Positions 1,611 to 40,560 of a stretch of 47,389 bases of DNA are shown one piece after another. A model generated the notes under the pieces. That model was not told where the DNA came from. It made no database searches and saw only the letters and a program-made list of their open reading frames with translations. The DNA is from Oscillospiraceae bacterium. GTDB lineage: Bacteria > Bacillota > Clostridia > Oscillospirales > Oscillospiraceae. Both the position numbers and the translations under genes were made by a program. The stretch covers positions 1-47,389 of the forward strand of contig JAETOQ010000012.1 of assembly GCA_021771635.1 (NCBI GenBank), read 5' to 3'. The first letter of the stretch is position 1; each line of letters begins with the position of its first letter.

Positions 1611-1676
1611 TAAAAGTATCAAGCTGTGGGCTTGCGCCCTGGGCGCGGCCCTCTTATAAGTTTGGGAGGTTATCAC

Positions 1677-16600: not shown

Positions 16601-18146
16601 CGCGCAGGAGCTTGTCCGCGCCGGTTCGACAGTGGACGGCATCGGCACCATCGAGTACAGCACCAGCCAGAACGGCACGTATTCCACCACCATCCCCACC
16701 GGCACCAACGCGGGCACCTACACCGTCTGGTACAAGGTGGCGGACAGCGTGAACTACACCGGCATCGCCCCGGCGTCCATTCAGGTGGAGATCAAGAAGG
16801 CGGATCCCGTCATTACCACAAATCCCACAGCATCCGGTACGGCGGGACAGAAGCTGAGCGAGATCACGCTGGACGGCGGCGCGACAAATACCTCTGGCGG
16901 CACCTTTGACTGGGAGAGTCCCGGGATCGAAGCCGAGGCCGGAAAGGCGTACAACGTGATCTTCAAGCCGAACGACACCGCCAATTATAAGACGGTCACG
17001 TTCACGCTGACGCCGGTCAGCGCTACAAGCGGCGGTAACACCCCCGGCATCCCCGATACCCCCAGCACCCCCGACAGCGCCTCGCTCCAGACCACCATCC
17101 AGAACGGCACGGCCAACACCGTGCTGAGCGCCGCGGGCGGCGATAAACTGGTAAAGGAGGCGGTTCAGAACCAGAGCCGGAACATCGTCATCAAGCCGGA
17201 GATCACCGGCGACGTGAGCAAGACCCAGGTGTCCATCCCGGCCTCCACCGTGAGCCAGATCAACAGCCAGACCGACGCGGCCCTCACCGTGGCCTCCCCC
17301 ATCGCCGACGTGACCATCCCCAACGGGGCGCTGGACACCCTGGGCAGCGCGGGCGGCACCGTGAACGTAGTCACCGAGCAGGTGGGCAACGCGGTGGCGC
17401 TGACGCTGACCGCCGGCGGCGAGCCTGTAGACAGCGTGCCCGGCGGCGTGACCCTCACCGTCCCGGCGGAGGACGCCGGAGCCGGCACCGTGGCGGTCTT
17501 GATCCATGACGACGGCACCCGCGAGGTGCTCCAGCGCAGCGTAGTGAAGGACGGCAAGCTGAGCGCCCCGCTGAGCGGCTCCGCCACCGTGGAAATCGTG
17601 GACAACGGCAAAGCCTTTGCCGACGTGCAGCCCACGGACTGGGCGGCTGAGGCGGTGACCTTCGCCAGCGCCCGCGGGCTGTTCACCGGCACCAGCGAGA
17701 GCACCTTCAGCCCGGAGGAGACCACCAGCCGCGGAATGGTGGCCACCGTGCTCTACCGGCTGGAGGGCCAGCCGGAGCAGGCGCTGGCAGACGTGTATCA
17801 CGATGTCAGCGACGACGCCTGGTACGCGGACAGCGTTGCCTGGGCCGCGGAGAACGGCATTGTAAACGGCTATGGGGACGGCCAGTTTGGCCCCAATGAC
17901 AGCGTCACCCGGGAGCAGTTTGTGGTGATGCTCTGGAGGTACGTGGGAAGTCCCGAGGCAGCTAACCACGACCTGACGGCGTTCACTGACGCGGATCAGA
18001 TCAACGGCTACGCTCTGGAGGCGCTGTGCTGGGCCGTAGAGAACGGAGTGATGAACGGCAACGGAAACGGCAGGCTTGCCCCTGGGGGAACCGCGACCCG
18101 TGCCGAAGCGGCGCAAATATTGAAGAACTTCATAGAAAACATTTGA
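1677..18146 (+). CDS. Giant secreted S-layer-anchored surface protein with MBG/YDG Ig-like repeats (5489 aa)
   Basis: The start at 1677 is chosen because GGGAGGT lies 7-13 nt upstream and the product begins with a signal peptide (MKRRVLSSIMALALCLNLF, cleavage after the Ala-rich GVFAADA). In order: Cys/His-rich head (about residues 35-140); a beta-helix-like Gly/Ser stretch (about 235-335); a zinc-ribbon-like TCPYCG...CGQCG segment near 370-410; then about 4500 residues of Ig-like modules; a Ser/Thr/Gly linker; an adhesin-like domain; and three SLH domains to the C-terminus. The modules follow a set order: YYGD...SGGSG, then KKPVTA...YDG, then YNG...NAGTYTVWYKV, then YDG...EYTV.SNN. MBG/YDG domains are known from bacterial adhesins, and SLH domains bind pyruvylated cell-wall polysaccharide. 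The likely role is a long fibrillar adhesin or scaffold; the ligand is unknown. The frame is open throughout, and the gene is monocistronic. Confidence 0.93.
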   Translation: MKRRVLSSIMALALCLNLFPVGVFAADAGTGDGLCPHHPAHTDACGYAPPVLEQECTHNHNEGCYTEEINCLHEHTAECYPDSGDASQAGEPVLCAHVCTQDSGCITRTLSCPHEHNDTCGYVAGKPGAPCLFVCAVCPIEDLIGQLPSRLSAGNAERVQAQIEEIYTLYDALTDEEQRQVDLSPCAALLNQMDGMGSTVLVDGSDSNVEKFTLTEDKENDGLYVVNTPLIFITNEHTLTGTNSSAIQVTGTGELHVRGGGAIVSKQGAGVEVQSGGKLYLEDSVSISGTTYALYIASGAEVHLSAGTYSGNTAAIYVEGGDYAALLGEGYAFFDGGSAISPENLASAKTLTVRQCTDHAKGEFKPVAGTPTHAWTCPYCGIGGTEPCTFSFAETGVGSCGQCGNQISVVVDRDSLKVLAYDDTVQPANGAVTVKVGDTVLTPETDYTVSYVTRGELGVTDITVTVTVTVQPDNGTFTQEYIFTQDDLTKPVLEWDTTSVSVPVTVPYTGSPVTKDQLPNVTINITTASGVDLQNLLRYSHKVQGDSAYTTGLPTNAGTYDVVVSIPEGTDYQAASSEPITLEIMPIDPIATPPAAAKPIYNRNPQALVTAGELTPVAVRDGLKIQFATSETGPYSDTIPTGIDAGDSYTVWYQVTGLTDNYIAPDPNPAQVADVKILRKAITPVVTLSQYSYLYDGGFKEPTVTVKDSDRVTDLPDTEYKVEYVNNRNVSTDDNPAKVVVTDKIQNGGNYDITQVDVEFKITSKTQDTLSITNKPSTFTYGDKFTLQTSGGSGNGLVTWEIVPADPNHPDSKAATVGTNSGQVVITGHGEITVKATKSGTDPDTGVVNYEDATAVWTFTADKKPVTATVTAEDKDFDGNTTATVHAEVKNGVLAGDEIKITGLTGSFDNENAGVGKTVTVVTTGAAITGKNSEHYAVTYSATTVTATIRKAVAKITTAPVAATLTYSGQPQELIATAAVVDPNTVQVEYALSETGTYSTDYPKGTNAGTYTVWYRVKETDNYTGLAPASVDVTIAKKPVSPTITLSGDGLQTDSSTPPTYSYIYDGTAKEPIVTLYEADGTTVIPAGEYTVAYSNNINVSTADTPATVTVTVKENGNYSFTPVTKNFTINKEQAKVLTAPKAAGLPLVFSTYAQELVTAGTASGGTMVYRVGSTGDFEEGIPTKTDAGTYNVYYKVQGDSNHSDSDVCAVPVTVTIAPKTAKDPTIELYQDDGTTPLVSYTYDGNPKEPNVVVKDGSDIIAATEYNVVYSDNTDAGHGTVNITDKPGGNYTVTGSATFVINKADIVDPKPQPATLTYNGTAQELLVPGTTTGGTVQYALNSATSTYSDAIPTGVNAGTYNVYYKVTGDKNHNDLPVQGPVEVEIQRKPLTDITIELTPDNFQYDGAVHLPTVTVKDGDTVLSASEYSWACNVSDPKDGGTYTITISDKAGGNYDLTNAAPKTADFIIGKAAQAELVIEGTREHVYYGDTFPLTASGGSVADAALTWISVGENATIDTNGNVTIKGVGEVTIRVTNPGNDNYLPISAQWTFTAAPMPVTASVVVDGKVYDGTTAATVTSVSIATINSDTVTIDPASITAVFDDPHAGTDKTVTLDTSKVQVTGDDAAKYAISYPDTVTATITQATTTIGTDPAAIASLTYNGQPQALVTAGQTNVGFLVYSLSENGEYSREIPTGTDAGTYTVYYKVDGTADYTGVAANTTPISVTIDPKPITPKIELSETSYKYDGTQKAPKVTLKDGDTVIPENQYTVTWAGTKSQTDADMLRVADTYTATITNAANGNYSFTVTASVEITPAEQAALHITGQPEHVYYGDVITTLGTEGGTGDTKDDTVKWSVTAGSATIVESTGVLTITGTGSVTVRAERSVPNYGTVGDNWNFTVEPKPVTAEVKITAKDYDGTTTATVGSVTVPTINGDTVTIEPASITAAFDDANAGTGKTVTLDASKATADNTDKYAVSYPATAKGDINPKTLTSVTVTLSDHDLKSDPNGQYYEYDGTAKEPKVTVKYTEDSTDKVIPDSNYTVEYSNNKNVGDATVTVTAKDGGNYTFTAAPVHFEIRSVAAVLVSSPQAKNLTYEKGTEQELVTVGTATGGTVVYSLADVEADYKAEIPKKEAAGTYTVYYKVKGDANHADTASQQMTAIIKPKEITPTITLSGNGLTETNGVYFYTYDGNPKTPTVTVKDGTEVIDGTEYSVSYRDNVNAGTATVVISDNNGGNYIVNGSVTFEITKAAPTVTAPTEKTGLQYNGELQELVNAGVSNDGTVVYSVNGGNYSAAIPAASAVDTYTIDWKVLGDANHSDTTPATLTVKIDKNTVNTPTITLSSDQFKYNGSQQKPTITVYDDHSRLIPEYEYTVKIEGTNGNVGMVDVDTYTVTVTTPKTSNYVISSNNTRTFQIVAADQETISITGTPAQVRYGDTIQLGVSGGTGGGTVKWEITGNTDTTLTQGGLLTVKDVNTSIKVTVTRSRGGNYTDVSASWEFTAARKPVTADVTVAAKNWDGTTGVDNTAITATVKTADLAFTDDSITISGLTGTYDNANVGTDKTVTLNKDGVNINGTNAGKYDVAIPATATASILAVAATVDTEPAANTLTYDASQSQALVTAGTATGGTMVYSLDGTNFTQNIPKGKDAGKYTVYYKAQGDQNHTDSAVGTVEVTIAQQTIAATDLQIELSPAWAQYDGQEHKPAVTLRDTKNNEIPTTEYTVVYDSATNWKDVGKHKVKVQNITGGNYIITETEKEFEISTSAQAPLQIVNKPGLVYYGDTFTLSATGGSGTGAVKWSSSDTSVATIDENGGLVTIVGVGQATITATKAGDGNHGEATATYPLNAHKKPVTVTVTADDKVYDGNTNATIHFTWTGLVGTDAINTNNLTGTFDNENVGTNKTVTITGDPVSDTTAQKYDITVQRTTTASITKEVAATPNVTAATDLEYTGSAQDLVTGDGTNTLYSASRDGVYSSTVPTGTNAGTYTVWYKAQGDVNHNDSEPQSISVTISPKPLTVDASNVELSGNDLQGNATDGYYYDYDGTEKTPTVTIKDGNAVVSPSEYTVTYSNNKNATTADKKATVTITDKEGGNYVISVTGTVSFEIHSVAAVLTGAPQDRNLTYNGAAQQLVTVGTATGGHIEYQLTSAPTGESAPSGGFSMSIPTGTNAGTYTVDYKVVGEGSYSDGPTGSVTVTIQPKTVISPKITVTGTYTYNSNEQKPTGTAVTVEDGMTTIDASEYTLSYQNNVNAGTATVIVTDNNGGNYTVNGTATFQIGKAVATGTAPTGKTGLKYNGTAQELITAGSSSDGTMVYSLSETGEYSAAIPTGKDVKEYEIWYKVLGDSNHSDSAATALSPKVEIAKNTVTKPTIQVTPPSVKYTGEKQTPTITVKDDEGLLIDGSEYTATYADAANSNNNDLTQVGTYTVTVTGKGTNYSFSKTATFTITQADQTPLTITGTRERVYYGDTIQLSTTGGISGGTVTWAVNSGAPASITGTGLLTITGVGSVTVKATSTKTGYADQTATWNLYADKKPVAALVTAASKTYNNSADATVTATLQGSDFVGTDSFTISLTGCTFEDANAGTDKKVNVVSTSPTFTVNAGGTDNHENYAITYPAMATASIFKADVTDVTAPVAENDTAKLVYTGQPLALVKTAGTATGGTMEYSTDSTNYSASLPTGTDSGNYDVWYRVKGDGNHNNTTPVKLTETNQVTIAPQKVEKDKLTIEFTPDSASYDGAVHKPSVTVKDGNNRMISGSEYTVTYSDTDWKTASSTTVKHIVTIADETGGNYEITTKTAEFTISVMGQNPLSIVGQPGEVRYGDSFTLSTTGGSGMGAVTWTSSDTSVATIGANGLVKTLKSGSTTITATKQADDNYGAVSVTWSFSVEKKPVTAIVTAKDKEHDGTDAATLVITWKDGDVLSADVNTLTTALETALSGKFDTADAGTGKTVTISGTLPDSEKYAITINRTTTASITPKAATLSGTTNPTLTYTGSAQNLVTGITATSGTLVFSTDGSYYTQLVPTGTNAGTYPVWYKAQGGGNYKDSDPVRLNVTIQPKTVNNPVIELSPDSFEYDGTPKKPDVVVKDGSTVIPAVEYTVSYSNNINVGTTAKVTISDNAGGNYTVSGIANFTITAGKATLTTAPQAKVLTYTGAPQELVSRGAADNGTVVYSQTETGGYTTTIPRQTNAGNYEVWYKVQNTDGTDATTPQYLSVTIARKAITAEVLLDPEEFIYSGDPCTPDVFVLDLDSNDLLDPDTDYTVRYMSNTKVGTARVIVVGKGNYSFSVTTTFEIVAAKAKFTTSPTAVTGLTYNGTAQPLVTAGTAEGGTPCYSLDGVSYFPTIPTAIDRGSYTVYAKIQGDSTHEDSDVVRISVTIGVNALTADQLTVTLSSSSFPYTGGEHKPTVTVTDDDGNVISADEYTVTYSGNVSVGTATVSIKSKTTGNYNFTASAQFQIVDANQTPLTITGKKDAVYYGDTLNLGTTGGSGNGAVTWSATGPVDTLGDGQYKVTSSGSGTITATKGGSTDTWTFYAQPKPVTAVVTAANKVYDGDTNATLTVALNGLLPGETVNSVTAQGQFLDADVGTNKTVTIISLTIPDEVGKLYAISHSGPTTASITPAPAAVTAAPTLATGPLTYNGSAQALLTDGGTADGGSLMYSLDGKDYGYTIPTGTDAKTYTVWYKVEAADDNHKDSAAVKLGSVTISANQDTPTVLCTPGTLQYDGTEKTPAVVVRDSAQRIIPESEYTVAFPTPRIAVGTYTVTVTDKPGGNYSFTNPVTGTFEIVAASQNPLSIVTDIPTDVHYGDSFRLSAMGGSGSGAIQWSIEGTAATINDNGVVTVTGTGGFTVKAYRKGADGYSDSNTDSVPFVSNPKPVTPVVTASDKPYDGTTDAALTASWKNGDLVGTDTIALTANGVFATADAGTGKRVNITEHSATGTNVDKYAITWPESTTASIYKVDAKLDTAPADAGLTYNKSAQELVRAGSTVDGIGTIEYSTSQNGTYSTTIPTGTNAGTYTVWYKVADSVNYTGIAPASIQVEIKKADPVITTNPTASGTAGQKLSEITLDGGATNTSGGTFDWESPGIEAEAGKAYNVIFKPNDTANYKTVTFTLTPVSATSGGNTPGIPDTPSTPDSASLQTTIQNGTANTVLSAAGGDKLVKEAVQNQSRNIVIKPEITGDVSKTQVSIPASTVSQINSQTDAALTVASPIADVTIPNGALDTLGSAGGTVNVVTEQVGNAVALTLTAGGEPVDSVPGGVTLTVPAEDAGAGTVAVLIHDDGTREVLQRSVVKDGKLSAPLSGSATVEIVDNGKAFADVQPTDWAAEAVTFASARGLFTGTSESTFSPEETTSRGMVATVLYRLEGQPEQALADVYHDVSDDAWYADSVAWAAENGIVNGYGDGQFGPNDSVTREQFVVMLWRYVGSPEAANHDLTAFTDADQINGYALEALCWAVENGVMNGNGNGRLAPGGTATRAEAAQILKNFIENI
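1777..2095 (+). other. Cys/His-rich N-terminal head of the giant protein (domain)
   Basis: Five short repeats with the pattern C-x-H-x-H-x(3,4)-C-G/Y: CPHHPAHTDACGY, CTHNHNEGCY, CLHEHTAECY, a divergent CAHVCTQDSGC, and CPHEHNDTCGY. The spacing suggests metal binding (Zn or other). Similar heads are seen on other large Firmicutes surface proteins; their function is not established to my knowledge. Confidence 0.7.
3960..16990 (+). repeat. Nine large Ig-like super-repeats inside the giant gene
   Basis: Nine copies of a YGD module are visible, starting near residues 770 and ending near 4790, for example NKPSTFTYGDKFTLQTSGG, GTREHVYYGDTFPLTASGG and GQPGEVRYGDSFTLSTTGG. Each is followed by a PVTA...YDG module. 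Between successive YGD/YDG blocks lie one to three pairs of YNG and YDG-EYTV modules, so the super-repeat averages about 500 residues but varies in length. Copies are diverged rather than identical, which argues for old duplication. Codons for Thr, Val, Gly and Asp dominate. Confidence 0.85.
17611..18143 (+). other. Three SLH (S-layer homology) domains at the C-terminus (domain)
   Basis: Repeats start FADVQPTDWAAEAVTFASARG, then YHDVSDDAWYADSVAWAAENG, then AFTDADQINGYALEALCWAV, each followed by a TRE/TRA-type segment (TSRGMVATVLYRL, TREQFVVMLWRYV, TRAEAAQILKNFI). The canonical ITRAE-like motif survives best in repeats 2 and 3. They anchor the protein non-covalently to secondary cell-wall polymer. 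No LPXTG motif follows. Confidence 0.9.
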
Positions 18147-30097: not shown

Positions 30098-31474
30098 TCA
30101 AATCAGTCCCAGCAGGCGCCACCAGGGCACGGACAGGGCCACCGTGAGCAGTACCGCCGCCAGCAGCGGCAGGGACAGCTTCAGCGTCTCCCGCTGGGTA
30201 TACATCCCGTTCTCCGCCCCCTGGCCTACCAACATATTCAGGTGGTGGAAGGGCAGGCAGTAGTGCCCCGCCACACTGAGGTAGACAATGCCGATGATAG
30301 CCAGCGGATCCGCGCCGGCGCCGGCGGAAAAGGACAAAAAGGCAGGAATTGTCACCCCCATCACCGCGATGACCGAGCCCATCAGCATATGGATCACCAC
30401 CGAAAGCCCCGCAATGCACAGCGCCAGCAGCACCGGGTTTTCCGGCATGGAGGCGGGCAGCAGGGTATGGGCGATCCAGGCGTTCATGCCGGTGGCCGCC
30501 CCAACCCTGCCGATGGCGATGGCGGCGGTGAGGAACACCATCACGTGGACGGGGACTTCCTTCCAATCCTTTGCCTCCAGCACGCCGCCCACCACGGGCA
30601 TACTCATCAGCATGGCGATCAGCAGGGTGATCCAGCCGATGTCCAGCCCCGTCATCCCATTGGTGAGCCACAGGACGATGGCGATGAGGATCCAAACCAG
30701 GGTGCGAATCTCTTTCTCCGTCATAGGGCCGAGCCCGGCCTGGGCGGCGCGGATCTCCTCCAGATCCGGAGCCGCCGGCGCGGAAGGGCGAAACAGCAGC
30801 AGGATCAGCCCCAAGGTCAGAACGCTGAGCAGCAGCGCAGGCGGGCCGATCACCTGAAGCCAGCGCAGGAAGCTCACCTCCCCGGCGTAGCTGGCCGCCA
30901 GGGGGTTGATGGTGGCGTCCCCGGTGAGAAAGATCAGCGAGACGGGCACCGACGCGGCAAACACCGTAAAGCCGATGATGGAGGCGTCCTTTTGGGGGAT
31001 GTGGGCGGAGCGGATCACCACCAGCATGACGGACATGATCAAAAAGGCCCGGGGCCAGGGATGGGGGATGAGCAGGGAGAGGATCAGCGTCAGCACAAAG
31101 ATGGACACAATGATGCTCCGCCAGCCCCGGACAAAGCGCAGGATAAAGGCATAGCTCAGCCGCTCCCCCAGCCCGGAGCCCCGCACCGCCGACGCGATGA
31201 GGTAGGCCCCCGCCACCAGCCAGATGGTGGAGCCTGTCCACCCGGAGAACACAACCGTGGGCTCCGCCACCTTGAACAGGCACAGCAGCATGAGATATAC
31301 GCCGCTGACATAACCCGACTGGGCGATCTGGGCGGCCCACCACACCACGGTCATCAGCGTCAGCCCCAGGCAGAGCTGCCCCTCCTGGGACAGCCCCTTC
31401 AGGGGGAGCAGGCAGATGACGGCGCACAGCGCGATGCCGCCGAAAAAGCCAGACAGCTTACCATACTGTTTCAT
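30098..31474 (-). CDS. SLC13/DASS-family carboxylate transporter
   Basis: 458 residues with about eleven to twelve helices. Two halves each show the SLC13-type re-entrant pattern (GWTGSTIWLVAGAYLIASAV and LTGDATINPLAASY in the first; HMLMGSVIAVMGVTIPAFL with CLPFHHLNMLVGQG in the second). The family imports or exchanges di- and tricarboxylates with sodium. GGAGGG lies 7 nt before the ATG. It follows the CoA-transferase gene after 16 nt and should share its sigma-54 promoter. A second, more standard DASS protein is encoded across the regulator at 34993. Confidence 0.8.
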   Translation of the reverse strand: MKQYGKLSGFFGGIALCAVICLLPLKGLSQEGQLCLGLTLMTVVWWAAQIAQSGYVSGVYLMLLCLFKVAEPTVVFSGWTGSTIWLVAGAYLIASAVRGSGLGERLSYAFILRFVRGWRSIIVSIFVLTLILSLLIPHPWPRAFLIMSVMLVVIRSAHIPQKDASIIGFTVFAASVPVSLIFLTGDATINPLAASYAGEVSFLRWLQVIGPPALLLSVLTLGLILLLFRPSAPAAPDLEEIRAAQAGLGPMTEKEIRTLVWILIAIVLWLTNGMTGLDIGWITLLIAMLMSMPVVGGVLEAKDWKEVPVHVMVFLTAAIAIGRVGAATGMNAWIAHTLLPASMPENPVLLALCIAGLSVVIHMLMGSVIAVMGVTIPAFLSFSAGAGADPLAIIGIVYLSVAGHYCLPFHHLNMLVGQGAENGMYTQRETLKLSLPLLAAVLLTVALSVPWWRLLGLI

Positions 31475-31490
31475 CGTCCAGCCCTCCGGC

Positions 31491-33059
31491 TCAGAGGCGC
31501 AGCCCCATTTTTTCCTCGCGGAAGATCCGGGCGTCCATAGTCCGGATCTCGTCGGCCAGCAGAGGCCGGAAGGCCATGCGGGACAAGACGTCCCGCTCCA
31601 AATCCACGCCCGGCGCGATCTCGGTGAGCATAATGCCGCCCTCCGCCAGGCGAAACACGGCGCGCTCGGTGATGTAGGTCACCTCCTGGCCGGTCTTGCG
31701 GGCGTAGTCGGCGGAGAACGTGATCTGCTGCACCTTCTCGATAAACTTTACGCCGGGGCCGTCCTGGATGATGTCCAGCTTGCCGTCATGGAGCTCAATC
31801 TGGCTTTTTCCGGCGGTAAACCCGGCCATGAAGAACACCTTGGGCGTGTTCTGGGAGATGTTGATAAACCCGCCGGGGCCGGGACAGCGGGGGCCGAACT
31901 TGGACACATTCACATTTCCCTCCCGGTCGATCTCCGCCGCGCCCAGGAAGGTCATGTCCAGAAAGCCGCCGTCATAGAGGTCAAAGGTGTCGCAAATGGA
32001 GTTGATGACCTCGGGATTCATGGAGCCGGCAAAGCCCACCCCCTCCACCGGCACGCCGCCGATGGGGCCGGACTCCAGGGACAGCGTGGTTTGGGCGGCA
32101 ATGCCCTCCTCGTTGGCCACCGCGCCCACCCCGGAGGGAATGCCGATGCCCAGATTGATCACGCAGCCGGGCTTGAGCTCCATGGCGCCCCGGCGGGCGA
32201 TGACCTTCCGGATCCCCATTTTCATGGGGGCGATGGCGTCCACCGGGCAGCGGGTCTCGCCGGTGAGGGAGGGCTGGTAGGTGGTGTTGGCATAGTTCTG
32301 CATATGCAGGGCCGCGGAGGGGGATTTCACCACATAGTCCACCAGCGTGTTATGGATGCGCACCTTTCGGGGGTGGATGGAGCCGCGCTGGACAATGTCC
32401 TCCACCTGAACCACCACGATACCGCCGCAGTTGTGGACGGCGGCGGCGATCTCAAGCTCCGTGCCGGTGAGCCCTTCGTGCTCCACGGAAATGTTGCCGT
32501 CCTCATCGGCATAGGTGCCCCGCAGGAAGCAGATGTCCAGCGGGAAGGAGGGGTAGAACAGGTATTCCGCGCCGTTCAGCGAAAGGAGCTGAACCACCTC
32601 CCGGCCCTGGCTCCTGGCCCTGCCGTTGGCCTTGCACCCCTCCTGCCTGGGGTCGGCGAAGGTGCCCAGTCCCACGCGGGTGATCACGCCGGGCTTTTTC
32701 CCCGCGATGGCCCGGAACAGCTGGGCCACTACGCCGAGGGGCAGGGTGTAGGCGGCCAGCTTGTCCTCCGCCGCCATGGCGCTGATCCGAGGAGGGTTGG
32801 CCAGGTGTCCGGCGATGATGGTGCGGATGAGCCCCTCGTGGGCGATGCGGTTCATTCCGACGTCCTCCTGGGTGTTGTCTCCGGTGCTGATGCCGGTGAT
32901 GACGGTGATCCCGGCGGGGCGGCCGGTTTCCTGGAACCGCCGGGACAGGGCGTCCAGCAGAGCATCCGGGCCGCAGTAGGAGCCAAAGCCGCCCAGGGCG
33001 GCGGTGCAGCCGTCCTGAACCAGTTCCGCCGCCTGCTCAGGGGTGATAAACTTTACCAT
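31491..33059 (-). CDS. Acyl-CoA:acetate/3-ketoacid CoA-transferase (YdiF-type fused subunits)
   Basis: 522 residues from the second ATG (33059), since AAGGAG is about 10 nt from it and only 1 nt from the ATG at 33068. The alpha and beta halves of class I CoA-transferases are joined in one chain. Residues 1 to about 270 contain VITGISTGDN and GHLANPPRISAM. The second half carries the catalytic glutamate Glu329 (TLSLESGPIGGVP), which forms the glutamyl-CoA thioester, after GCVINLGIGIPSGV. It moves CoA between short acyl-CoAs and free acids such as acetate or acetoacetate. In this locus it would recover CoA from the acyl-CoA released by BKACE or activate the acetoacetate formed. It is transcribed from a -24/-12 promoter at 33109-33124. 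Confidence 0.88.
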   Translation of the reverse strand: MVKFITPEQAAELVQDGCTAALGGFGSYCGPDALLDALSRRFQETGRPAGITVITGISTGDNTQEDVGMNRIAHEGLIRTIIAGHLANPPRISAMAAEDKLAAYTLPLGVVAQLFRAIAGKKPGVITRVGLGTFADPRQEGCKANGRARSQGREVVQLLSLNGAEYLFYPSFPLDICFLRGTYADEDGNISVEHEGLTGTELEIAAAVHNCGGIVVVQVEDIVQRGSIHPRKVRIHNTLVDYVVKSPSAALHMQNYANTTYQPSLTGETRCPVDAIAPMKMGIRKVIARRGAMELKPGCVINLGIGIPSGVGAVANEEGIAAQTTLSLESGPIGGVPVEGVGFAGSMNPEVINSICDTFDLYDGGFLDMTFLGAAEIDREGNVNVSKFGPRCPGPGGFINISQNTPKVFFMAGFTAGKSQIELHDGKLDIIQDGPGVKFIEKVQQITFSADYARKTGQEVTYITERAVFRLAEGGIMLTEIAPGVDLERDVLSRMAFRPLLADEIRTMDARIFREEKMGLRL

Positions 33060-33108
33060 AATAAGCATCTCCTTTTTCTCAACGCGCGGTCAGATGCCTA
33101 TTTATACC

Positions 33109-33124
33109 GCAAAAATGATGCCAA
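33109..33124 (-). promoter_or_regulatory. Sigma-54 (-24/-12) promoter of the CoA-transferase operon
   Basis: Minus strand TTGGCAT-N5-TTGC (33124-33109) matches the sigma-54 consensus TGGCAC-N5-TTGC with one change. It is about 50 nt before the start codon. The identical -24 element TTGGCAT is used at 34922. Confidence 0.85.
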
Positions 33125-33151
33125 TTTGAGGCGCCCCCCAAAACAGGGGCT

Positions 33152-33164
33152 GAACGGCCCGTTC
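33152..33164. promoter_or_regulatory. Candidate upstream activator site (13-bp palindrome)
   Basis: GAACGGCCCGTTC, a perfect dyad about 35 nt upstream of the -24 element. No identical copy was seen before the 34922 promoter, so its role as activator site is speculative. Confidence 0.3.
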
Positions 33165-33317
33165 TGTGCTGAAAACACCACAAAAGCCCCCCGGAATCCG
33201 CCCCGCGAATGAGGAAAAACCGGAATATGAAAATCCTGTGTGTATGAAAAGACCTACACCCCCCCTCTTGACAAACCGAGATGACTTATGGTACCTTTCC
33301 CGCAAGGAGGGATTGGC

Positions 33318-34715
33318 ATGGCAGACGGAACCCCCTATGGGCTGAGCCGGCGCATGGAGCCGGAAAAACTGAAGGATCTGATGCAGAAGGCCCTGATCAA
33401 CCTGGGTGAGGTTGTGGTGCTGGATGAGGAGGGCCGCATGGTCTACATCAGCGAGGAGTACGCCAAAAATATGCACATCTCCATCGAGGATTCCCTGGAC
33501 TGCCCGGTAGAGGAGGTCATTGAGGACACCTGCCTCCATCGGGTGCTCCGGAGCGGAACGCCGGAGCGGGGGGGCACCTACTACCGAAAGGGCGAGGTCT
33601 TTTTTGTCAACCGCTTTCCCATCTGGGAGAACGGGAAGGTGGTGGGGCTGGTGGCGCAGGCTGTGCTGAGCAGCCTGCTGGGGAACCAGATCCAGGAGGC
33701 GGTGGGCGGCTTCGCCCGGGAGCTGAACTACTACAAGAACAAATATCACGAGATCTCCGCCCCCAAAAGCACCTTGGACACCATTGTGGGGGACAGCCTG
33801 GTGATACGCGATCTGAAGGAATCCCTCCACATGGTGGCCAGCACCCGCTCCTCGGTGCTGATCACCGGCCAGAGCGGAACGGGCAAGGAGGTCTTTGCCG
33901 GGGCGATCCATAACCTGAGCGGCCGCCGGGACAAGCCCTTTATCCGCCTGAACTGCGCCGCCATTCCGGACAACCTGCTGGAGTCGGAGCTGTTCGGCTA
34001 TGAGGGGGGCGCGTTCACCGGCGCGCTGCGGGGCGGCAAAATCGGAGACTTTGAGGCGGCCAACGGCGGCACCCTGTTTTTGGACGAGGTGGACTCCCTG
34101 TCCATCAAGATGCAGGCCAAGCTGCTGCGGGCCATTCAGGAGCGGGAGATCAAAAAGGTGGGCAGCACCAAGGCCATCCCCATCGACGTGCGGTTTATCT
34201 TCGCCACCAACAAGGACTTGCATCAGATGGTGAAGGACGGCGCCTTCCGGGAGGATTTCTATTACCGCATCAACGTGATCAACCTCCACCTGCCCCCGCT
34301 GAAGGATCGGCGGGAGGATATCCACCCCCTGGTGGACAGCTTCGTGGAAAAGCTGAACCGGGAGCTGGGCCGCAATGTCTGGGAGATCACCCCGGAGGCC
34401 ATGGCAATTCTGGAGCAGTATGACTGGCCGGGGAATATCCGGGAGCTGGAAAACTGCGTGGAGCGGGCCTTCAACTATGTGACCGGCGGCATCATCGAGG
34501 CGCGGCACATTCTTCTGCCCGGCCTGGAGGATCAGCGGTTTTCCGTGCCGGCGCCATCCCAGGGGAGCACGTTGAAGGAGGTACGCAGCCGGGCGGAGAA
34601 AATGGCCATTCAGCAGGCGCTCCACGCCTGCGGCGGGAACAAAAAGGAGGCGGCGGAGCGGCTGGGCATAGACAGGAGCATCCTGTACGACAAGATGAAA
34701 CGCTACGGGATCTGA
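33318..34715 (+). CDS. Sigma-54-dependent transcriptional activator (PAS, AAA+, Fis-type HTH)
   Basis: 465 residues; AAGGAGG lies 7 nt before the ATG at 33318. An N-terminal PAS-like sensor (about 10-130; VVVLDEEGRMVYISEEYAKN) precedes the AAA+ domain: Walker A GQSGTGKE (about 184-191), the sigma-54 contact loop GAFTGA near 231, Walker B GTLFLDEVD and the arginine-finger region FREDFYYRINVINLHLPPL. The C-terminus is a Fis-type helix-turn-helix (GGNKKEAAERLGIDRSILYD). It lacks a receiver domain, so it probably senses a small ligand, perhaps the substrate of the locus, through PAS. It lies between two divergent operons that both have sigma-54 promoters, which makes it their activator with high probability. 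Confidence 0.93.
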   Translation: MADGTPYGLSRRMEPEKLKDLMQKALINLGEVVVLDEEGRMVYISEEYAKNMHISIEDSLDCPVEEVIEDTCLHRVLRSGTPERGGTYYRKGEVFFVNRFPIWENGKVVGLVAQAVLSSLLGNQIQEAVGGFARELNYYKNKYHEISAPKSTLDTIVGDSLVIRDLKESLHMVASTRSSVLITGQSGTGKEVFAGAIHNLSGRRDKPFIRLNCAAIPDNLLESELFGYEGGAFTGALRGGKIGDFEAANGGTLFLDEVDSLSIKMQAKLLRAIQEREIKKVGSTKAIPIDVRFIFATNKDLHQMVKDGAFREDFYYRINVINLHLPPLKDRREDIHPLVDSFVEKLNRELGRNVWEITPEAMAILEQYDWPGNIRELENCVERAFNYVTGGIIEARHILLPGLEDQRFSVPAPSQGSTLKEVRSRAEKMAIQQALHACGGNKKEAAERLGIDRSILYDKMKRYGI

Positions 34716-34750
34716 TCCACCCCCTTGGACTTTGTATCATATGCATGAAA

Positions 34751-34785
34751 AACCCAACGCGAGCTCAAATCGCGTTGGGTTTTTT
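34751..34785 (+). terminator. Terminator of the sigma-54 activator gene
   Basis: Perfect 12-bp stem AACCCAACGCGA / TCGCGTTGGGTT (34751-34762 with 34770-34781), loop of 7, then TTTTC. The A-run on the left flank would also permit reverse termination. Confidence 0.88.
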
Positions 34786-34921
34786 CTACATAATTCACGG
34801 CCCGCACCCCCGCGGGCGTCAGGCCGGGCCGGCGCTCAAAAAAATTTTTGGCTCCCGCAAAGGCAGGCGGCGCAGGCGGTTTTGCGCTTCCGGCGCATGG
34901 AAGCGGGGCGGTTTGGGAAAG

Positions 34922-34937
34922 TTGGCATCGTCATTGC
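34922..34937 (+). promoter_or_regulatory. Sigma-54 (-24/-12) promoter of the transporter-BKACE operon
   Basis: TTGGCAT-N5-TTGC with GG at 34924-34925 and GC at 34936-34937, exactly 12 nt apart as required. Inferred start near 34949; the first gene starts at 34993. Confidence 0.88.
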
Positions 34938-34992
34938 GTTACCAGAAAGGCATCTGCGGCACACACCGCAACTACAGAAAGAGGGGAACGTT

Positions 34993-36462
34993 ATGGACAA
35001 GCAAAAACTGTCAATGCCAACATCAAAGCTGATCAAGATTCTGGTATGCTTAGCCATCGTCGTTGCGTTCTGGATCATGCCTGCTCCCGAGCCGCTGACC
35101 GCGGGCGGCATGAAGGTGATCGGCGTATTCGTCGCCACGGTGCTGCTCCTCAGTACCGTGGACACGGTATGGCCCGCCATTCTGGCGGTGGCGCTGCTGG
35201 GCCGCACCGGAGTGGTCAGCGTCAACGAGGCCATCGCGGGCACCCTGGGAAGCTGGATTGTCTACTTTGTCCTGATGAGCTTCGTCATGACCTACGCCCT
35301 GAACAAGTCCGGCTTCACCGACCGCCTGGTGGCCAAGTTCATGAGCATGAAGTTTGTCAGCAGGAGCCCATGGACGTTCACCATTTCCATGGCCACCATC
35401 GGCCTGATCCTGGCCTGCTTTATGGATCAGGTTCCCGCCGCCTCTTTTATGCTGATGTTCGCCAACAAGGTGTATGAGGAGCTGGGCTATACCAAGAAGG
35501 ACGCCTATCCCCACATCGCCAACATCATTGTCATTTACGCGGTGATCATCGGCGGCGCCATGACCCCCATCTCCCACTCGCTGGCCCTGCTGGGCATGGG
35601 GATCTATGAGGGCGCCGTGGGGGCCCCCATGAGCCTGTTCACCTATCTGTCCTTCGGCGTGCCCACCGGGCTGGTGCTGTATGTGCTCTTTGTGCTGATC
35701 ATGCGGCTGACCTGCGGCAAGGTGGACATGGGCAAATTCAAGGATTTCGACGTGCAGCGGGTGCTGAAAAAGCAGGAGAAGATGCAGGTGCGGGAGCTGG
35801 TCACCGTCATTGTGTTCTTCGGCACCGTTGTCATGTGGATGCTGCCCGGCGTGGCCGGACTGTTCACCAATGCCGCCTGGGTGTCCACCCTGAACGGCTT
35901 TGGCATCACCTTCTGGGCCATCATCTCCGTGGTGCTGATGTCCGTGATCAGCGTCAATGACGAGCCCATCATCGACCTGAAGGAGGTGCTCAACAAGCAG
36001 ACAAACTGGGGCATCCTGGTGTTCATCGCCATCGGCGTCTACCTGGGCAGCGCCCTGTCCAACGAGGCCACCGGGCTGAACGCCTGGATCACCGCCAACA
36101 TCAGCCCCCTCACCACTGCCGTGGCCCCCATCGTGGTGGTGCTGATCATCACCACCGCCGGGGTGTTCCTCACCAACTTCGCCTCCAACGTGTCCACCAT
36201 CACCGTGATGACCGGCGTGGGCGTGACGGTGGCCCTGGCCAGCAATGGCGCCATCAACCCGGCGGGCATGGCGCTGTGCACCACAATGGCGGGCTCCTGC
36301 GCCTACCTGATGCCCTCCTCCTTCGCCTGCATCGCCATGCTCCACGGCAACGAGTGGAGCGACAGCAAAAAGGTCTATGTCTACGGGCTGATCATGTGCA
36401 TCCTCAGCTCGCTGGCCATCGGCCTGGTGGGCTACAACATCGGCTGCGCCCTGGCGGGCTGA
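34993..36462 (+). CDS. SLC13/DASS-family dicarboxylate transporter
   Basis: 489 residues beginning MDKQKLSMPTSKLIKIL; AGAGGGG precedes the ATG by 6 nt. About twelve helices are visible, with the DASS signature areas SFVMTYALNKSGFTDRLVAK, MATIGLILACFMDQVPAASF and, near the end, LTNFASNVSTITVMTGVGV and CTTMAGSCAYLMPSSFACIA. These segments carry the Ser-Asn-Thr-like sodium and carboxylate sites of the VcINDY/CitT group. It is the first gene of the sigma-54 operon that includes BKACE and probably the dehydratase. It presumably imports the hydroxy- or dicarboxylate degraded by the downstream enzymes; the solute is unknown. Confidence 0.85.
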   Translation: MDKQKLSMPTSKLIKILVCLAIVVAFWIMPAPEPLTAGGMKVIGVFVATVLLLSTVDTVWPAILAVALLGRTGVVSVNEAIAGTLGSWIVYFVLMSFVMTYALNKSGFTDRLVAKFMSMKFVSRSPWTFTISMATIGLILACFMDQVPAASFMLMFANKVYEELGYTKKDAYPHIANIIVIYAVIIGGAMTPISHSLALLGMGIYEGAVGAPMSLFTYLSFGVPTGLVLYVLFVLIMRLTCGKVDMGKFKDFDVQRVLKKQEKMQVRELVTVIVFFGTVVMWMLPGVAGLFTNAAWVSTLNGFGITFWAIISVVLMSVISVNDEPIIDLKEVLNKQTNWGILVFIAIGVYLGSALSNEATGLNAWITANISPLTTAVAPIVVVLIITTAGVFLTNFASNVSTITVMTGVGVTVALASNGAINPAGMALCTTMAGSCAYLMPSSFACIAMLHGNEWSDSKKVYVYGLIMCILSSLAIGLVGYNIGCALAG

Positions 36463-36519
36463 CGCCCGCCTCTATGACAGTATCCCCATCTCAATTGATT
36501 TTTGAAAGGAAGATAAACT

Positions 36520-37401
36520 ATGGCAACTCGTAAAATCATCATCACTGTGGCCCAGACCGGCGCCTTCCACGGCAAGGAGGCCAACCCCAACATCCCCCTG
36601 ACCCCCCAGGAGATCGCCGACTCCGCCTACGACTGCTACAACGCGGGCGCGGCCATCGTCCATATCCACGCCCGGGACAAGGAGGGCCTGTCCACCAACG
36701 ACCCCAACGTCTACAACGAGATCGGCTCCAAAATCCGGGCCAAGTGCAATCTGGTGACCCAGTACTCCACCGCCCCCGCCAATCGGGCGGGCACCGGCGC
36801 GGAGGACGGCATGAAGCTGCTGTACGACCCCAATCTGGTCAAGCCCGATATGTGCTCCTTGGACTGCTCCCTGATCTCCACCAGCTGGGACGGGCGCACC
36901 TTCGTCTACGAGTGGTTCCGCGACTTCCTGCTGAAGTACGCGAAAATGATGAAGGACATGGGCATCAAGCCCGAGCTGGAGTGCTTTGAGCCCACCGCCG
37001 TGGAGGACGTGTTCAACATCCTCCAGCCCGCCGGCGTGCTGAACGATCCCGTCTCCCTGTCCTTCGTCATGGGGATGGACAAGATCAGCCAGGGCGCCAT
37101 CTCCTTCTCCGAGGAGAACCTGGACTTCATGATCAAGAAGCTGCCCAAGAACCAGTTTGTCAACTTCAGCACCATCTCCATCGGCGCCAAGAACCACGTG
37201 CCCGGCATGGCCATGACCGTCCTCAAGGGCGGCGGCGCCCGGGTGGGCATGGAGGACAACATCTACTACGGCCCCGGCGAGCTGCTCAAGAGCAACGCCC
37301 AGATGGTGGAGCGCGCCGTGCGCATCATCCGGGAGCTGGGCTATGACGTGGCCACCCCGGACGAGGCCCGGGATATCCTGAAGATCCCCCACCTGAGCTG
37401 A
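36520..37401 (+). CDS. BKACE-family beta-keto acid cleavage enzyme (DUF849)
   Basis: 293 residues, standard length. The zinc ligands His48 and His50 appear in GAAIVHIHARD. Other family motifs are VTQYSTAP, ELECFEP (substrate pocket), FSTISIGAKN and GGGARVGMEDNIYY with the late metal-site Glu. BKACE enzymes split a beta-keto acid with acetyl-CoA into acetoacetate and a new acyl-CoA; characterised members act on 3-keto-5-aminohexanoate, dehydrocarnitine, beta-ketoglutarate and others. The gene follows the DASS transporter after 57 nt with its own AAAGGAAG ribosome site. Substrate-pocket residues cannot be interpreted reliably here without a structure alignment. Confidence 0.9.
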   Translation: MATRKIIITVAQTGAFHGKEANPNIPLTPQEIADSAYDCYNAGAAIVHIHARDKEGLSTNDPNVYNEIGSKIRAKCNLVTQYSTAPANRAGTGAEDGMKLLYDPNLVKPDMCSLDCSLISTSWDGRTFVYEWFRDFLLKYAKMMKDMGIKPELECFEPTAVEDVFNILQPAGVLNDPVSLSFVMGMDKISQGAISFSEENLDFMIKKLPKNQFVNFSTISIGAKNHVPGMAMTVLKGGGARVGMEDNIYYGPGELLKSNAQMVERAVRIIRELGYDVATPDEARDILKIPHLS

Positions 37402-37417
37402 GGCGCAAGTCCATAAC

Positions 37418-37456
37418 AGCAGACCGGCACTGGCGGCACAGCGCCGGTCTGCTTTT
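37418..37456 (+). terminator. Intrinsic terminator inside the operon, between BKACE and dehydratase
   Basis: Perfect 11-bp stem AGCAGACCGGC (37418-37428) with 37443-37453, loop of 14, then TTTT. The next gene starts 19 nt later with no obvious promoter in between, so partial read-through is likely. Confidence 0.75.
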
Positions 37457-37474
37457 GCTAAAGGAGGAAGCTTG

Positions 37475-39193
37475 ATGGATCGGCAGCACGTACCACCGCT
37501 TACCAGCCTGGAGCGAATTTCCAACCAGGTGATCTGGAAGGGCTGCGGCTATTCCGACGACGACCTGGCCCGCCCGGTTATCGGCATTGCCAACGCCTTT
37601 TCCGATATGGTGCCCGGCCACACCAACCTACGGCAATTGGCCCAGCAGGTCAAAAACGGCATCTACCGGGCGGGAGGCGTTCCCGCCGAGTTCGGCGTGA
37701 TCGCCTGCTGCGACGGCCTGGCGGGCGGACATGACGGCAACAACTATGTACTTCCATCCCGGGACAATATCGCCGACAGCATTGAGATCATAGCCGGCGC
37801 CCACCGGCTGGACGGGCTGGTGCTGCTGGGCAGCTGCGACAAGATCGTGCCCGGGATGCTCATGGCCGCCGCCCGGCTGGATCTGCCCTGCATCTTTGCG
37901 GCGGGGGGCAGTATGCTGTCCGGCCCGGCCTGCTGCGGGCAGGAAAAGACCGACACCACCACCGTCAGCGAGGCCCTGGGCCGGATGCAGGTGGGGGAAC
38001 TGGAGGAGGGGGATGTGCGCTGGATCTCCCAGGTGAGCGCCCCCACCTGCGGCTCCTGCCAGTTTATGGGCACCGCCAACAGTATGTGCTGCCTGGCGGA
38101 GGCCATGGGCATGAGCCTGCCGGGCAGCGCGCTGATCCCCGCCGTCTACAACGAGCGGCTGCGCAGCGCCTTTGCCAGCGGCGAGCAGATTGTCCGCATG
38201 GTGCGGGAGGGGCTGACGGCCCGGAGGATCCTCACCCGCCAGGCCATCGAAAACGGGATCATGCTGATGATGGCGGTGGGCGGATCCAGCAATACGGTCA
38301 TTCATACCTGTGCCCTGGCCCATGAGCTGGGGATTCCGGCCGGGGAGATCATCGCGTGCTTTGACCGGTACAGCGAACAGATCCCCCTGCTGGCCAAGGT
38401 CAACCCGGCCACCCATCAAGATGACGCGGTGGATCTCTACCTGGCCGGAGGCGTGCCCGAGGTCATGCGGCGCATGACGGCTCACCTGCATCTGGATCAG
38501 ATCACCGTCACCGGGAAAACTCTGGGCGAAAACCTGAAGGAAGCCCCGCCGCCCCAGGTTCCCGGCGGGAAGCTGATCCGCACCATGGACGACCCGCACA
38601 GCGTTTTGGGCGGGCTGGCCATCCTGCGGGGGAACCTGGCCCCCAACACCGGCGTATCCAAGCCCGCCGCCATTCGGCCGGAGGTGCGCCGCTTTACCGG
38701 CAAGGCGATCTGCTTCGACTCGGAGGACGCGTGCATGGAGGCGCTGGAGGCCCGCCGCGTCCAACCGGGCAGCGTGGTGGTTATCCGCTACGAGGGCCCA
38801 AAGGGCGGCCCGGGGATGAAGGAGCTGTACAAGCCCATGAAAACCCTCTACGGGCAGGGGCTTGCCGCCTCTACCGCCCTGATCACCGACGGGCGCTTTT
38901 CCGGCACCAACAGCGGCTGCTTTGTCGGGCACATCTCTCCGGAGGCCGCCGCCGGGGGGCCCATCGCGCTGGTGGAGGACGGGGACGAGATCACCATTGA
39001 CGTCATGGAAAAAACTCTGACCCTTCATGTGGGGGAGGAGGAGCTGGCCCGGCGGCGGGCGAACTGGGTGTACCGGCCCAAGCCTGTCAGCGGCTATCTG
39101 AAGCGGTATGCCGCCATGGTTACCTCCGCCGACGAGGGGGGCGTACTGCTCAGCCCGGAGGAGCGAAAGGACGAAAGGAGCGCGGACATATGA
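37475..39193 (+). CDS. IlvD/Edd-family dehydratase
   Basis: 572 residues; AGGAGG lies 7 nt before the ATG at 37475. Family landmarks: the Fe-S ligands in GVIACCDGLAGGHDG, LLGSCDKIVPGMLMA and SAPTCGSCQFMGTANSM, then AVGGSSNTVIH, and the C-terminal active-site Ser region LITDGRFSGTNSGCFVGHISPEA. The family dehydrates 2,3-dihydroxy acids (branched-chain precursors) or sugar acids (gluconate, xylonate, arabinonate and others) to 2-keto-3-deoxy acids. Since it sits in a catabolic locus with transporters and no ilv genes, a sugar-acid or hydroxy-acid dehydratase role is favoured over branched-chain amino-acid synthesis. Its stop overlaps the start of the VOC gene. Confidence 0.88.
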   Translation: MDRQHVPPLTSLERISNQVIWKGCGYSDDDLARPVIGIANAFSDMVPGHTNLRQLAQQVKNGIYRAGGVPAEFGVIACCDGLAGGHDGNNYVLPSRDNIADSIEIIAGAHRLDGLVLLGSCDKIVPGMLMAAARLDLPCIFAAGGSMLSGPACCGQEKTDTTTVSEALGRMQVGELEEGDVRWISQVSAPTCGSCQFMGTANSMCCLAEAMGMSLPGSALIPAVYNERLRSAFASGEQIVRMVREGLTARRILTRQAIENGIMLMMAVGGSSNTVIHTCALAHELGIPAGEIIACFDRYSEQIPLLAKVNPATHQDDAVDLYLAGGVPEVMRRMTAHLHLDQITVTGKTLGENLKEAPPPQVPGGKLIRTMDDPHSVLGGLAILRGNLAPNTGVSKPAAIRPEVRRFTGKAICFDSEDACMEALEARRVQPGSVVVIRYEGPKGGPGMKELYKPMKTLYGQGLAASTALITDGRFSGTNSGCFVGHISPEAAAGGPIALVEDGDEITIDVMEKTLTLHVGEEELARRRANWVYRPKPVSGYLKRYAAMVTSADEGGVLLSPEERKDERSADI

Positions 39194-39678
39194 AACAGTT
39201 GATTGAATACGGCATCGACCACGTGGGCTTTATTGTTCCCGATCTGGACAAAGCGGCGGCCCACATGAAGGAGCACTATGGGATCAGGGATGTGATCACC
39301 CTCTCCCCCTATCTGGAGACCGCATGGACAAATGGAATGCCCCACCCCCAGCAGTGCAGATGCGCCATCCTGTCCCTGGCGGGGAACCAGTGCAAAATCG
39401 AGCTGCTGGAGCCGGTCACGGAGGGCGGCTATCACTGGGACTATATCCAGCAGGGGGGGAGCGGCATCAACCACATCTGCTTTAAGGTGCATGACTTCGA
39501 CCACTGGCGGAAGCATTTCCAAGAGAAGGGCGACGACATTTTCTTCGAGTATGAGGCGGAGGACGAGGAAAACGGCTACCGCCGGTGTATGTACGCCCGG
39601 GACAAGGTCATGGACATGATCTACGAGATCAAGGAGATCAACCGCTATCGCGGCCCGGATGGGACGCTGCAGGACTGA
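39190..39678 (+). CDS. VOC-superfamily (glyoxalase/epimerase-like) protein
   Basis: 162 residues. Two beta-alpha-beta-beta-beta units of the vicinal oxygen chelate fold are visible, with likely metal ligands His11 (GIDHVGFIVPDL), a Glu in CKIELLEPV, a His in GINHICFKV and a Glu in MIYEIKE. This arrangement resembles methylmalonyl-CoA epimerase and lactoylglutathione lyase. The start overlaps the dehydratase stop (ATGA), so translation is coupled. In this pathway it may epimerise a 2-substituted acyl-CoA or acid, or isomerise a keto-acid; the exact reaction is unknown. Confidence 0.82.
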   Translation: MKQLIEYGIDHVGFIVPDLDKAAAHMKEHYGIRDVITLSPYLETAWTNGMPHPQQCRCAILSLAGNQCKIELLEPVTEGGYHWDYIQQGGSGINHICFKVHDFDHWRKHFQEKGDDIFFEYEAEDEENGYRRCMYARDKVMDMIYEIKEINRYRGPDGTLQD

Positions 39679-39690
39679 GGAGGCGGTATG

Positions 39691-40560
39691 ATGCTGAGCA
39701 TTGGATTTGCGGGGCTGGGCTCCATGGGGCTGAGCATGGCCCTGTGTCTGCGGAAGGCGGGCTTTGAGGTGATGGGCTGGAACCGCACCCGGACAAAGGA
39801 GGCCCCCCTGCTGGCCGCCGGGGGAACCAGCGCCCCCAGCCTGTCCGCCATGGGGCAGGAGTGCGATGTGGTGGTGCTGTGCCTCCCGCATGACGGGATC
39901 GTGCGGGAAACGCTGCTGGGGGAGGGCGGCGTCCTGTCCGGCGGGCCGCGGCGGGTGCGCTATGTGGTGGATTGCAGCACCATTGACGTGGATGCCGCCC
40001 GGGAGCTGGGCGCGGAGCTGAGCAAGCTGGGGGTGTATTACTTTGATTCCCCGGTCAGCGGCGGGCCCCAGGGAGCCAGGGACGGCACCCTCACCATCAT
40101 GGTGGGGGGAGACGAGGCGGTGCTCAACGAGACGCTGATGCCCGTCTACCGGGCCATGGGGAAAACGATCCTTTACTTCGGGCCCAACGGTTCCGCCCAG
40201 CAGATCAAGCTGATCAACCAGATCCTCACCTGGGTAAACCACGCGGTGATCTGCGAGGCCGGAGTGCTGGCGAAAAAGGCGGGGCTGGATGAGCAGAAGC
40301 TGTATGACTGCATCATGACCTCCTATGGCTGCAGCCGGGTGTTCGAGGTATGCTACCAGAGCCACATTATGCCCAGAAACTATGACAATCCCACCGGAAT
40401 GAAGATGATGGTGAAGGATCTGGAGCTGGCCCAGAGGTTTGCCGCCTCCTGCGGGGCAAGGCTGCCTATGACCGACGCGGCCATGGCGCTCTACCGGCAG
40501 GCCATCCTCATGGGCCAGGGCGAGCGGGATCAGAGCATCATCATGGAGCAGCTGGACTGA
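39691..40560 (+). CDS. 3-Hydroxyisobutyrate dehydrogenase-like NAD(P)-dependent 3-hydroxyacid dehydrogenase
   Basis: 289 residues from the second ATG, which is 7 nt from AGGAGG. The nucleotide-binding start is IGFAGLGSMGLSMA (GxGxxG), followed by the NRTR segment that in this family often favours NADP. The substrate loop is DSPVSGGPQGARDGTL, and the catalytic Lys173 lies in GSAQQIKLINQ. Members oxidise or reduce beta-hydroxy acids (3-hydroxyisobutyrate, tartronate semialdehyde, 2-(hydroxymethyl)glutarate and others). It is the last gene of the operon. It could produce the beta-keto acid needed by BKACE. Confidence 0.88.
   Translation: MLSIGFAGLGSMGLSMALCLRKAGFEVMGWNRTRTKEAPLLAAGGTSAPSLSAMGQECDVVVLCLPHDGIVRETLLGEGGVLSGGPRRVRYVVDCSTIDVDAARELGAELSKLGVYYFDSPVSGGPQGARDGTLTIMVGGDEAVLNETLMPVYRAMGKTILYFGPNGSAQQIKLINQILTWVNHAVICEAGVLAKKAGLDEQKLYDCIMTSYGCSRVFEVCYQSHIMPRNYDNPTGMKMMVKDLELAQRFAASCGARLPMTDAAMALYRQAILMGQGERDQSIIMEQLD

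Follow-up and report, generated by a model that had tools for sequence, protein, structure and literature searches.

The eight genes at positions 30098-40560 of a 47,389-base stretch of Oscillospiraceae bacterium DNA (contig JAETOQ010000012.1, assembly GCA_021771635.1; "the window" below) raise the question of whether they encode the steps of a single pathway. They specify two SLC13 transporters, a CoA-transferase, a sigma-54 activator, a BKACE, an IlvD/Edd dehydratase, a VOC-superfamily protein and a HIBADH-like dehydrogenase. Comparison with related loci divides the locus into two modules: module A (BKACE, an importer and a CoA-energy enzyme, either a CoA-transferase or Ptb/Buk) is common, and module B (IlvD-VOC-HIBADH) is rare, recurring in two relatives, designated L060 and G118. 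The genes, their promoter sites, the partners that recur beside BKACE and the separability of the modules are direct observations. The reading that we favor, with a probability of about 0.55, is a CoA-economical cassette for beta-keto acid cleavage to which a sugar-acid module has been appended, both under one sigma-54 activator; the gene set probably imports a negatively charged acid, splits a beta-keto acid and saves the CoA energy.

A contig of an Oscillospiraceae metagenome-assembled genome, S26_Bin1 (JAETQF010000019.1, 47,389 bases; L057), is 100% identical to the window. All eight open reading frames are free of internal stops, and each protein reaches at least one Pfam cut-off (PF00939 twice, PF01144, PF00158 with PF02954, PF05853, PF00920 with PF24877, PF13669, and PF03446 with PF14833). 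For three genes the likely start codon differs from that of the longest frame, as marked. The features are as follows.

30098-31474, minus strand: SLC13a, a DASS-type anion symporter (PF00939, 101.2 bits against a cut-off of 27; TIGR00785, 97.2 against 198.6)
31491-33068, minus strand, start likely at 33059: YdiF/FadX-like CoA-transferase (PF01144, 117.3 bits against 23; nearest solved structure YdiF, 2ahu, E = 4.6e-121, aligned over residues 6-521)
33108-33123, minus strand: sigma-54 -24/-12 site of the CoA-transferase/SLC13a unit (exact pattern match; counterparts in L060 and G118)
33288-34715, plus strand, start perhaps at 33318: sigma-54 activator (PF00158, 229.2 bits; HTH_8, PF02954; GAFTGA)
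34747-34785, plus strand: terminator hairpin with a T-run 3' of the activator (-24.7 kcal/mol, z -7.76)
34923-34938, plus strand: sigma-54 -24/-12 site of the SLC13b unit (exact pattern match)
34993-36462, plus strand, likely start as given: SLC13b, a DASS-type anion symporter (PF00939, 94.1 bits, scanned with two additional N-terminal residues; TIGR00785, 100.3)
36520-37401, plus strand: BKACE of an unnamed clade (PF05853, 265.8 bits against 24.8; H48, H50, E245, R241 and D246; W132/R134)
37419-37452, plus strand: hairpin between modules A and B, possibly a decayed terminator (37401-37475 folds at -33.6 kcal/mol, z -3.25)
37475-39193, plus strand: IlvD/Edd dehydratase, putatively of sugar-acid type by its tree and the neighborhoods of its sisters (PF00920, 384.1 bits)
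39190-39678, plus strand: VOC-superfamily protein of a rare family (PF13669, 54.4 bits against 27; TIGR03081, methylmalonyl-CoA epimerase, 45.7, below 114.95)
39688-40560, plus strand: HIBADH/tartronate-semialdehyde-reductase-like dehydrogenase (PF03446 and PF14833; below the cut-off in 13 of the 13 NCBIfam families listed)

An earlier, sequence-only reading of this DNA had described complete, undamaged genes of these families, and this is confirmed. Its (di)carboxylate importers, sigma-54 control and pairing of BKACE with a CoA-transferase are supported, and BKACE lies outside the named subfamilies. It had also described two outward-reading units around the activator, which needs correction. 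SLC13a and the CoA-transferase point left, the activator points right by itself, and SLC13b-BKACE-IlvD-VOC-HIBADH also point right, separated by 57, 73, -4 and 9 bases. Because the hairpin with its T-run closes the activator, there would be no simple read-on into SLC13b, and the locus probably yields three transcripts rather than two. Counterparts of this terminator are visible by eye in L060 and G118. A simple terminator scan of the region missed it and found 2 terminator-like sites, compared with 7.7 in shuffles, so that scan alone backs nothing.

The window holds just two exact matches to the -24/-12 pattern, one 5' of each unit flanking the activator, where 0.23 are expected; two matches occurred in 1 of 100 shuffled windows, for a pattern that was drawn up after the sites had been seen in the region. 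L060 has matches at both corresponding positions, as does G118 with a slightly looser pattern. The activator carries GAFTGA, which we take to be its sigma-54 interaction motif. Sigma-54 control of the locus, as predicted from the activator domain, this motif and the two sites, is thus supported.

The division into modules comes from 37 other loci of the same BKACE clade (49 to 97% identity), compared by tblastn at E <= 1e-10 over at least 40% of the query; many are shortened by contig ends. Thirty of them contain Ptb/Buk or one of three types of CoA-transferase (the YdiF type in 25). A 3HCDH-like dehydrogenase occurs in 24, as does a cupin, and a UbiD-like gene in 2. Importers vary (SLC13 in 6, SSF in 2, a DctM-type permease in 9), as do regulators (a sigma-54 activator in 7, LysR in 14). 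IlvD, VOC and HIBADH are each present in 2 of the 37, L060 and G118, and stand directly 3' of BKACE in L060 alone; the sequence-only reading had made its proposal depend on homologous loci keeping these genes together, and it is weakened by their rarity there. Of the 20 clade loci flanked by 5 kb or more on each side, 2 have module B and 19 a CoA-energy enzyme. For the 49 BKACE loci outside the clade the counts are 0 for IlvD, VOC and HIBADH and 12 for a CoA-energy enzyme, a control biased low for divergent genes since all queries came from the window or from clade loci. We favor two modules under one activator because of this difference in CoA enzymes (30/37 against 12/49) and because G118 holds the modules side by side with separate SLC13 and activator genes. 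That such different CoA enzymes appear to replace each other next to a single BKACE clade is, in our view, the strongest functional argument.

Two of the recurring neighbors deserve separate mention. The cupin-like protein (11066-11524 of L045, with 20 relatives) lies between 3HCDH and the CoA-transferase and has invariant H73, H75, E79 and H123; the single member scanned matches nothing in Pfam or NCBIfam, and a profile search finds weak cupin structures only (E 0.17-0.91). In L066 and L078 a gene that is UbiD-like in appearance, without a family scan, adjoins the CoA-transferase of the BKACE cassette; the two copies are 89% alike.

L060 has the same eight genes in the same order at 83 to 97% identity. 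In G118 both modules lie on one contig, each with its own SLC13 and activator genes: module B runs SLC13 (63%), activator (46%), IlvD (76%), VOC (68%) and HIBADH (70%), module A runs SLC13a (81%), CoA-transferase (82%), activator (63%), SLC13b (82%) and BKACE (94%), and phosphofructokinase, class II aldolase and amidase-like genes lie between them. Two further sigma-54-type matches in G118 are near module B, one 5' of its SLC13 gene and one 5' of its activator gene. Just 5' of module B (1722-4645 of L142) are also a 2-hydroxyacyl-CoA-dehydratase-like protein and a fused HGD-D/activase protein.

The gap between BKACE and IlvD carries a strong hairpin with four Ts in the window, the L060 gap folds at -31.9 kcal/mol (z -3.97) without a T-run, and G118 has a hairpin with a T-run 3' of BKACE, at the position where the window has module B. 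Across these three genomes the window hairpin is possibly a decayed terminator, and we read it as the mark of an appended module. Module B would then have been appended behind BKACE and taken under the same promoter, with its own importer and activator lost.

No IlvD orthologue (best match 43 to 47%) and no VOC orthologue (no match above 29%) was found in five BKACE-bearing genomes, Brachyspira catarrhinii, Lachnospiraceae RUI412, Intestinimonas bin_14, Youngiibacter fragilis and UBA6113, three of which are metagenome-assembled and may be incomplete; HIBADH was sought there within the loci only. B. catarrhinii has SLC13-AtoDA-BKACE, and Y. fragilis has AtoDA-thiolase-SSF-BKACE. Across public genomes and metagenomes the BKACE is well represented (418 protein clusters at E <= 1e-90, the best 120 of the 418 all at least 83% identical) and the VOC protein sparsely so (19 clusters at E <= 1e-8), in keeping with the two-module reading.

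The sequence-only reading had instead joined all of these genes in one linear pathway, in which IlvD dehydrates an imported hydroxylated acid, the VOC protein rearranges the product, HIBADH oxidizes it and BKACE cleaves the beta-keto acid that results, with CoA recycled. The identical gene order in L060, the shared sigma-54 promoter site and the contiguity and common direction of the modules in two genomes (they are neighbors in a third) are what it would predict, and HIBADH could fill the place of the 3HCDH-type dehydrogenase that accompanies BKACE in 24 of 37 clade loci. The rarity of module B, its existence as a separate unit in G118 and the failure to find IlvD and VOC orthologues in the five genomes, three of them metagenome-assembled, point the other way, and so does the chemistry. 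IlvD/Edd enzymes yield alpha-keto-beta-deoxy acids; BKACE requires beta-keto acids. The proposed order of dehydration, oxidation and cleavage is therefore hard to sustain except for C4 dihydroxy-diacids, and we consider the linear pathway unlikely. The earlier interpretation is thus partly supported, and its single pathway weakly so.

That exception can be spelled out. The keto group of an oxaloacetate-type diacid is alpha to one of its carboxylates and beta to the second, which makes C4 dihydroxy-diacids the only simple substrate class we could conceive that suits both enzymes. In a new, tartrate-type fermentation a C4 dihydroxy-diacid would enter via SLC13, IlvD would convert it to the oxaloacetate-type diacid, the W132/R134-clade BKACE would give acetoacetate and an oxalyl-CoA-type thioester, and the YdiF-like transferase would recover CoA. 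As a complete account of the locus we think this very improbable.

Some observations weigh against the two-module reading as well. Seven of the 37 clade loci lack a CoA enzyme in the available DNA; six of these (L058, L064, L067, L068, L085 and L086) are truncated by a contig end on one or both sides, yet L069, flanked by 10 kb in each direction, also has no CoA enzyme. None of the four sigma-54-type matches in G118 precedes IlvD. Both SLC13 proteins score below the TIGR00785 DASS subfamily cut-off. The identical order of the eight genes in the window and L060 may point to a single pathway, and the proposed operon fusion draws on three genomes.

The BKACE itself is well placed in its family but fits none of the named subfamilies. 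It scores below all four NCBIfam cut-offs: 232.4 against 382 bits for Kce (NF052387), 172.3 against 350 for 3-oxoadipate, 164.1 against 430 for dioxohexanoate, and 150.3 against 725 for the fourth. H48, H50 and E245 are retained, presumably as Zn ligands, along with R241 and D246, which we assign to the active site. W132 and R134 occur jointly in 39 of 39 clade rows of the alignment, counting the window's, and in 0 of 64 other rows; the pair is a signature of this unnamed clade. An anionic substrate would suit both the basic R134 and the SLC13 importers.

The window BKACE groups at 100/99, in a tree of 40 rows, with those of L060, G118, Intestinimonas, Lachnospiraceae RUI412 and Brachyspira. 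At E <= 1e-60, among 81 genomes drawn from the genus, BKACE was found in the window's own genome and in 0 of the 80 others. The presence of a spirochaete inside a Bacillota group and this absence from the rest of the genus suggest that BKACE has spread horizontally, and the clade may have crossed phyla.

A preprint (PMC12871164) calls a catalytic Tyr universal for the BKACE family. At that position the window has F156, and the aligned family rows have F in 94 of 103 and Y in 9, so the Tyr is not family-defining; most of the 103 rows came from a search in which one of two patterns ended in F, a bias, and F is also found in 12 rows from the family search (L021-L032) and in L001, none chosen by pattern, and in PDB chain 3c6c. 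The substitution bears on whether the homologue does other chemistry, such as the C-acetylation and decarboxylation of BsfD or the hydrolysis of cis-epoxysuccinate in the same fold. BsfD likewise has F there, and 34 of 39 clade rows have R or K at position 89, whose loop may be the counterpart of the BsfD Arg91 loop. F is common outside BsfD, however, so we do not read the Tyr-to-Phe change as evidence of BsfD-type chemistry; all three Zn ligands are retained, compared with two described for CESH[D], and CoA-handling neighbors occur in 30 of 37 clade loci. Such other chemistry seems improbable to us.

Outside the clade, Ala replaces the first Zn-ligand His in 26 of the 64 homologues (L094-L136, mostly Burkholderiales), often beside a 3HCDH gene, and these proteins may be non-BKACE. 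L104 and L110 carry tandem pairs of BKACE genes (35 to 36% and 39% identical to the window BKACE).

The window IlvD passes TIGR00110 (640.5 against 618.15 bits), so an automatic DHAD label is to be expected; the label is probably wrong. In a tree of 31 rows from 15 genomes, in which some long branches meet elsewhere, it forms one group with the L060 and G118 enzymes (100/100), joined at 100/99 by four other dehydratases, and DGRFSGTN.GCFVG is common to it and all six others. The neighbors of the four sisters are Eda aldolase, PfkB kinase and DctP for the one in the window's genome (contig C10), GntP permease, two SDRs and IclR for L196, GntR-FCD with weak DctP and DctM matches for L197, and an SDR only for L198; three of the four settings look sugar-acid-like. 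The tree and these neighbors are why we call module B a sugar-acid module, with an IlvD that would be a sugar-acid-type dehydratase rather than a housekeeping DHAD. That the cluster consists of housekeeping branched-chain amino-acid or fatty-acid genes together by chance would agree with the TIGR00110 score. IlvD lies outside a 16-row DHAD-like group with at least one member from each of the 15 genomes and two from the window's own, which has three further IlvD/Edd genes in all, and the sigma-54 sites recur in relatives; a chance assembly is extremely unlikely.

HIBADH falls below the NCBIfam equivalog cut-offs for the 3-hydroxyisobutyrate (177 against 291.6) and tartronate-semialdehyde (204.5 against 340.75) dehydrogenases. 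No close VOC orthologue beyond the window's genome and G118 appeared in overlapping genome draws from the family (400; E 1e-10), order, class and phylum (394, 391 and 398; 1e-25) and the G118 genus (20; 1e-15); L060 was reached by a separate search for BKACE homologues, outside these draws. Weaker VOC matches (33 to 36%) occur in G185, whose surroundings were compared solely against window genes, and in G339, where the adjacent gene and two beyond encode lipoate ligase, GDSL lipase and a lipoyl-type oxidoreductase.

Reactions, direction of transport, substrates and order of events are predictions from sequence in the scheme that we favor. SLC13b and SLC13a, both well within PF00939, would import a carboxylate anion. 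BKACE would convert a beta-keto acid and acetyl-CoA to acetoacetate and a shorter acyl-CoA, and the CoA-transferase would return CoA to acetate or acetoacetate, the thioester energy being kept toward acetyl-CoA or butyrate; in relatives Ptb/Buk, or AtoDA with thiolase, would recover the thioester instead. Module B would act on a related anionic substrate as a dehydratase unit of the sugar-acid type, an accessory rather than an obligatory step upstream of BKACE.

Parts of this scheme resemble known systems. Pseudomonas simiae and its relatives have an oxidative deoxyribonate pathway in which a beta-keto acid, formed by a dehydrogenase, is the proposed substrate of a BKACE that would release acetoacetate and an acyl-CoA, with CoA then recycled; the dehydrogenase there is an SDR and the importers are MFS, and the sections of that report consulted name no SLC13, sigma-54 activator, IlvD or VOC (PMC6365646). 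The phloroglucinol cluster of the anaerobe Clostridium scatologenes has a 3HCDH-family 3-hydroxyacid dehydrogenase with a Kce-like lyase, and some such clusters a CoA-transferase, but starts from an aromatic via PGR and a cyclase-family enzyme (PMC10470551). The window BKACE also scores below the dioxohexanoate subfamily cut-off. In lysine fermentation, Kce is a BKACE that works with a CoA-transferase and butyrate-type CoA recycling; the window enzyme misses the Kce cut-off, and F16 aligns with what we take to be the Glu14 of Kce, by its usual numbering and role. The window IlvD shares its group and motif with sugar-acid dehydratases of the IlvD/Edd family that are encoded next to Eda and PfkB-type kinase genes, whereas the window operon has no aldolase or kinase gene. 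No description of this gene set was found by title or opening lines in the literature searched, where subscription journals are poorly covered.

The window's genome has a second BKACE (L054; contig C154, 8349-19214), scoring 387.6 where the dioxohexanoate subfamily has its cut-off at 430, and adjoining a tartronate-semialdehyde-reductase-like gene, with OtnC-like, two XylB-like kinase, TRAP-type, IlvD and 3HCDH genes around it. BKACE, HIBADH and IlvD thus lie within 10 kb there. We set it aside as a parallel case, since the 16 other BKACE loci compared are 27 to 42% alike to its BKACE and too distant to bear on its conservation (3HCDH relative in 11 of 16, its reductase and its IlvD in 0 of 16). 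Elsewhere in the window, 1626-18146 on the plus strand encodes a giant surface protein of 5506 residues with YDG, Big_2 and SLH domains.

Judged by record titles, this BKACE clade, for which no substrate has been named, forms cassettes with importers and CoA-energy enzymes in anaerobes of the gut and elsewhere. Its natural variation, with module B or not, with SLC13, SSF or TRAP, and with a CoA-transferase or Ptb/Buk, makes guesses about function testable. The substrate of this BKACE would reveal a carboxylate fermented by these bacteria, perhaps toward butyrate.

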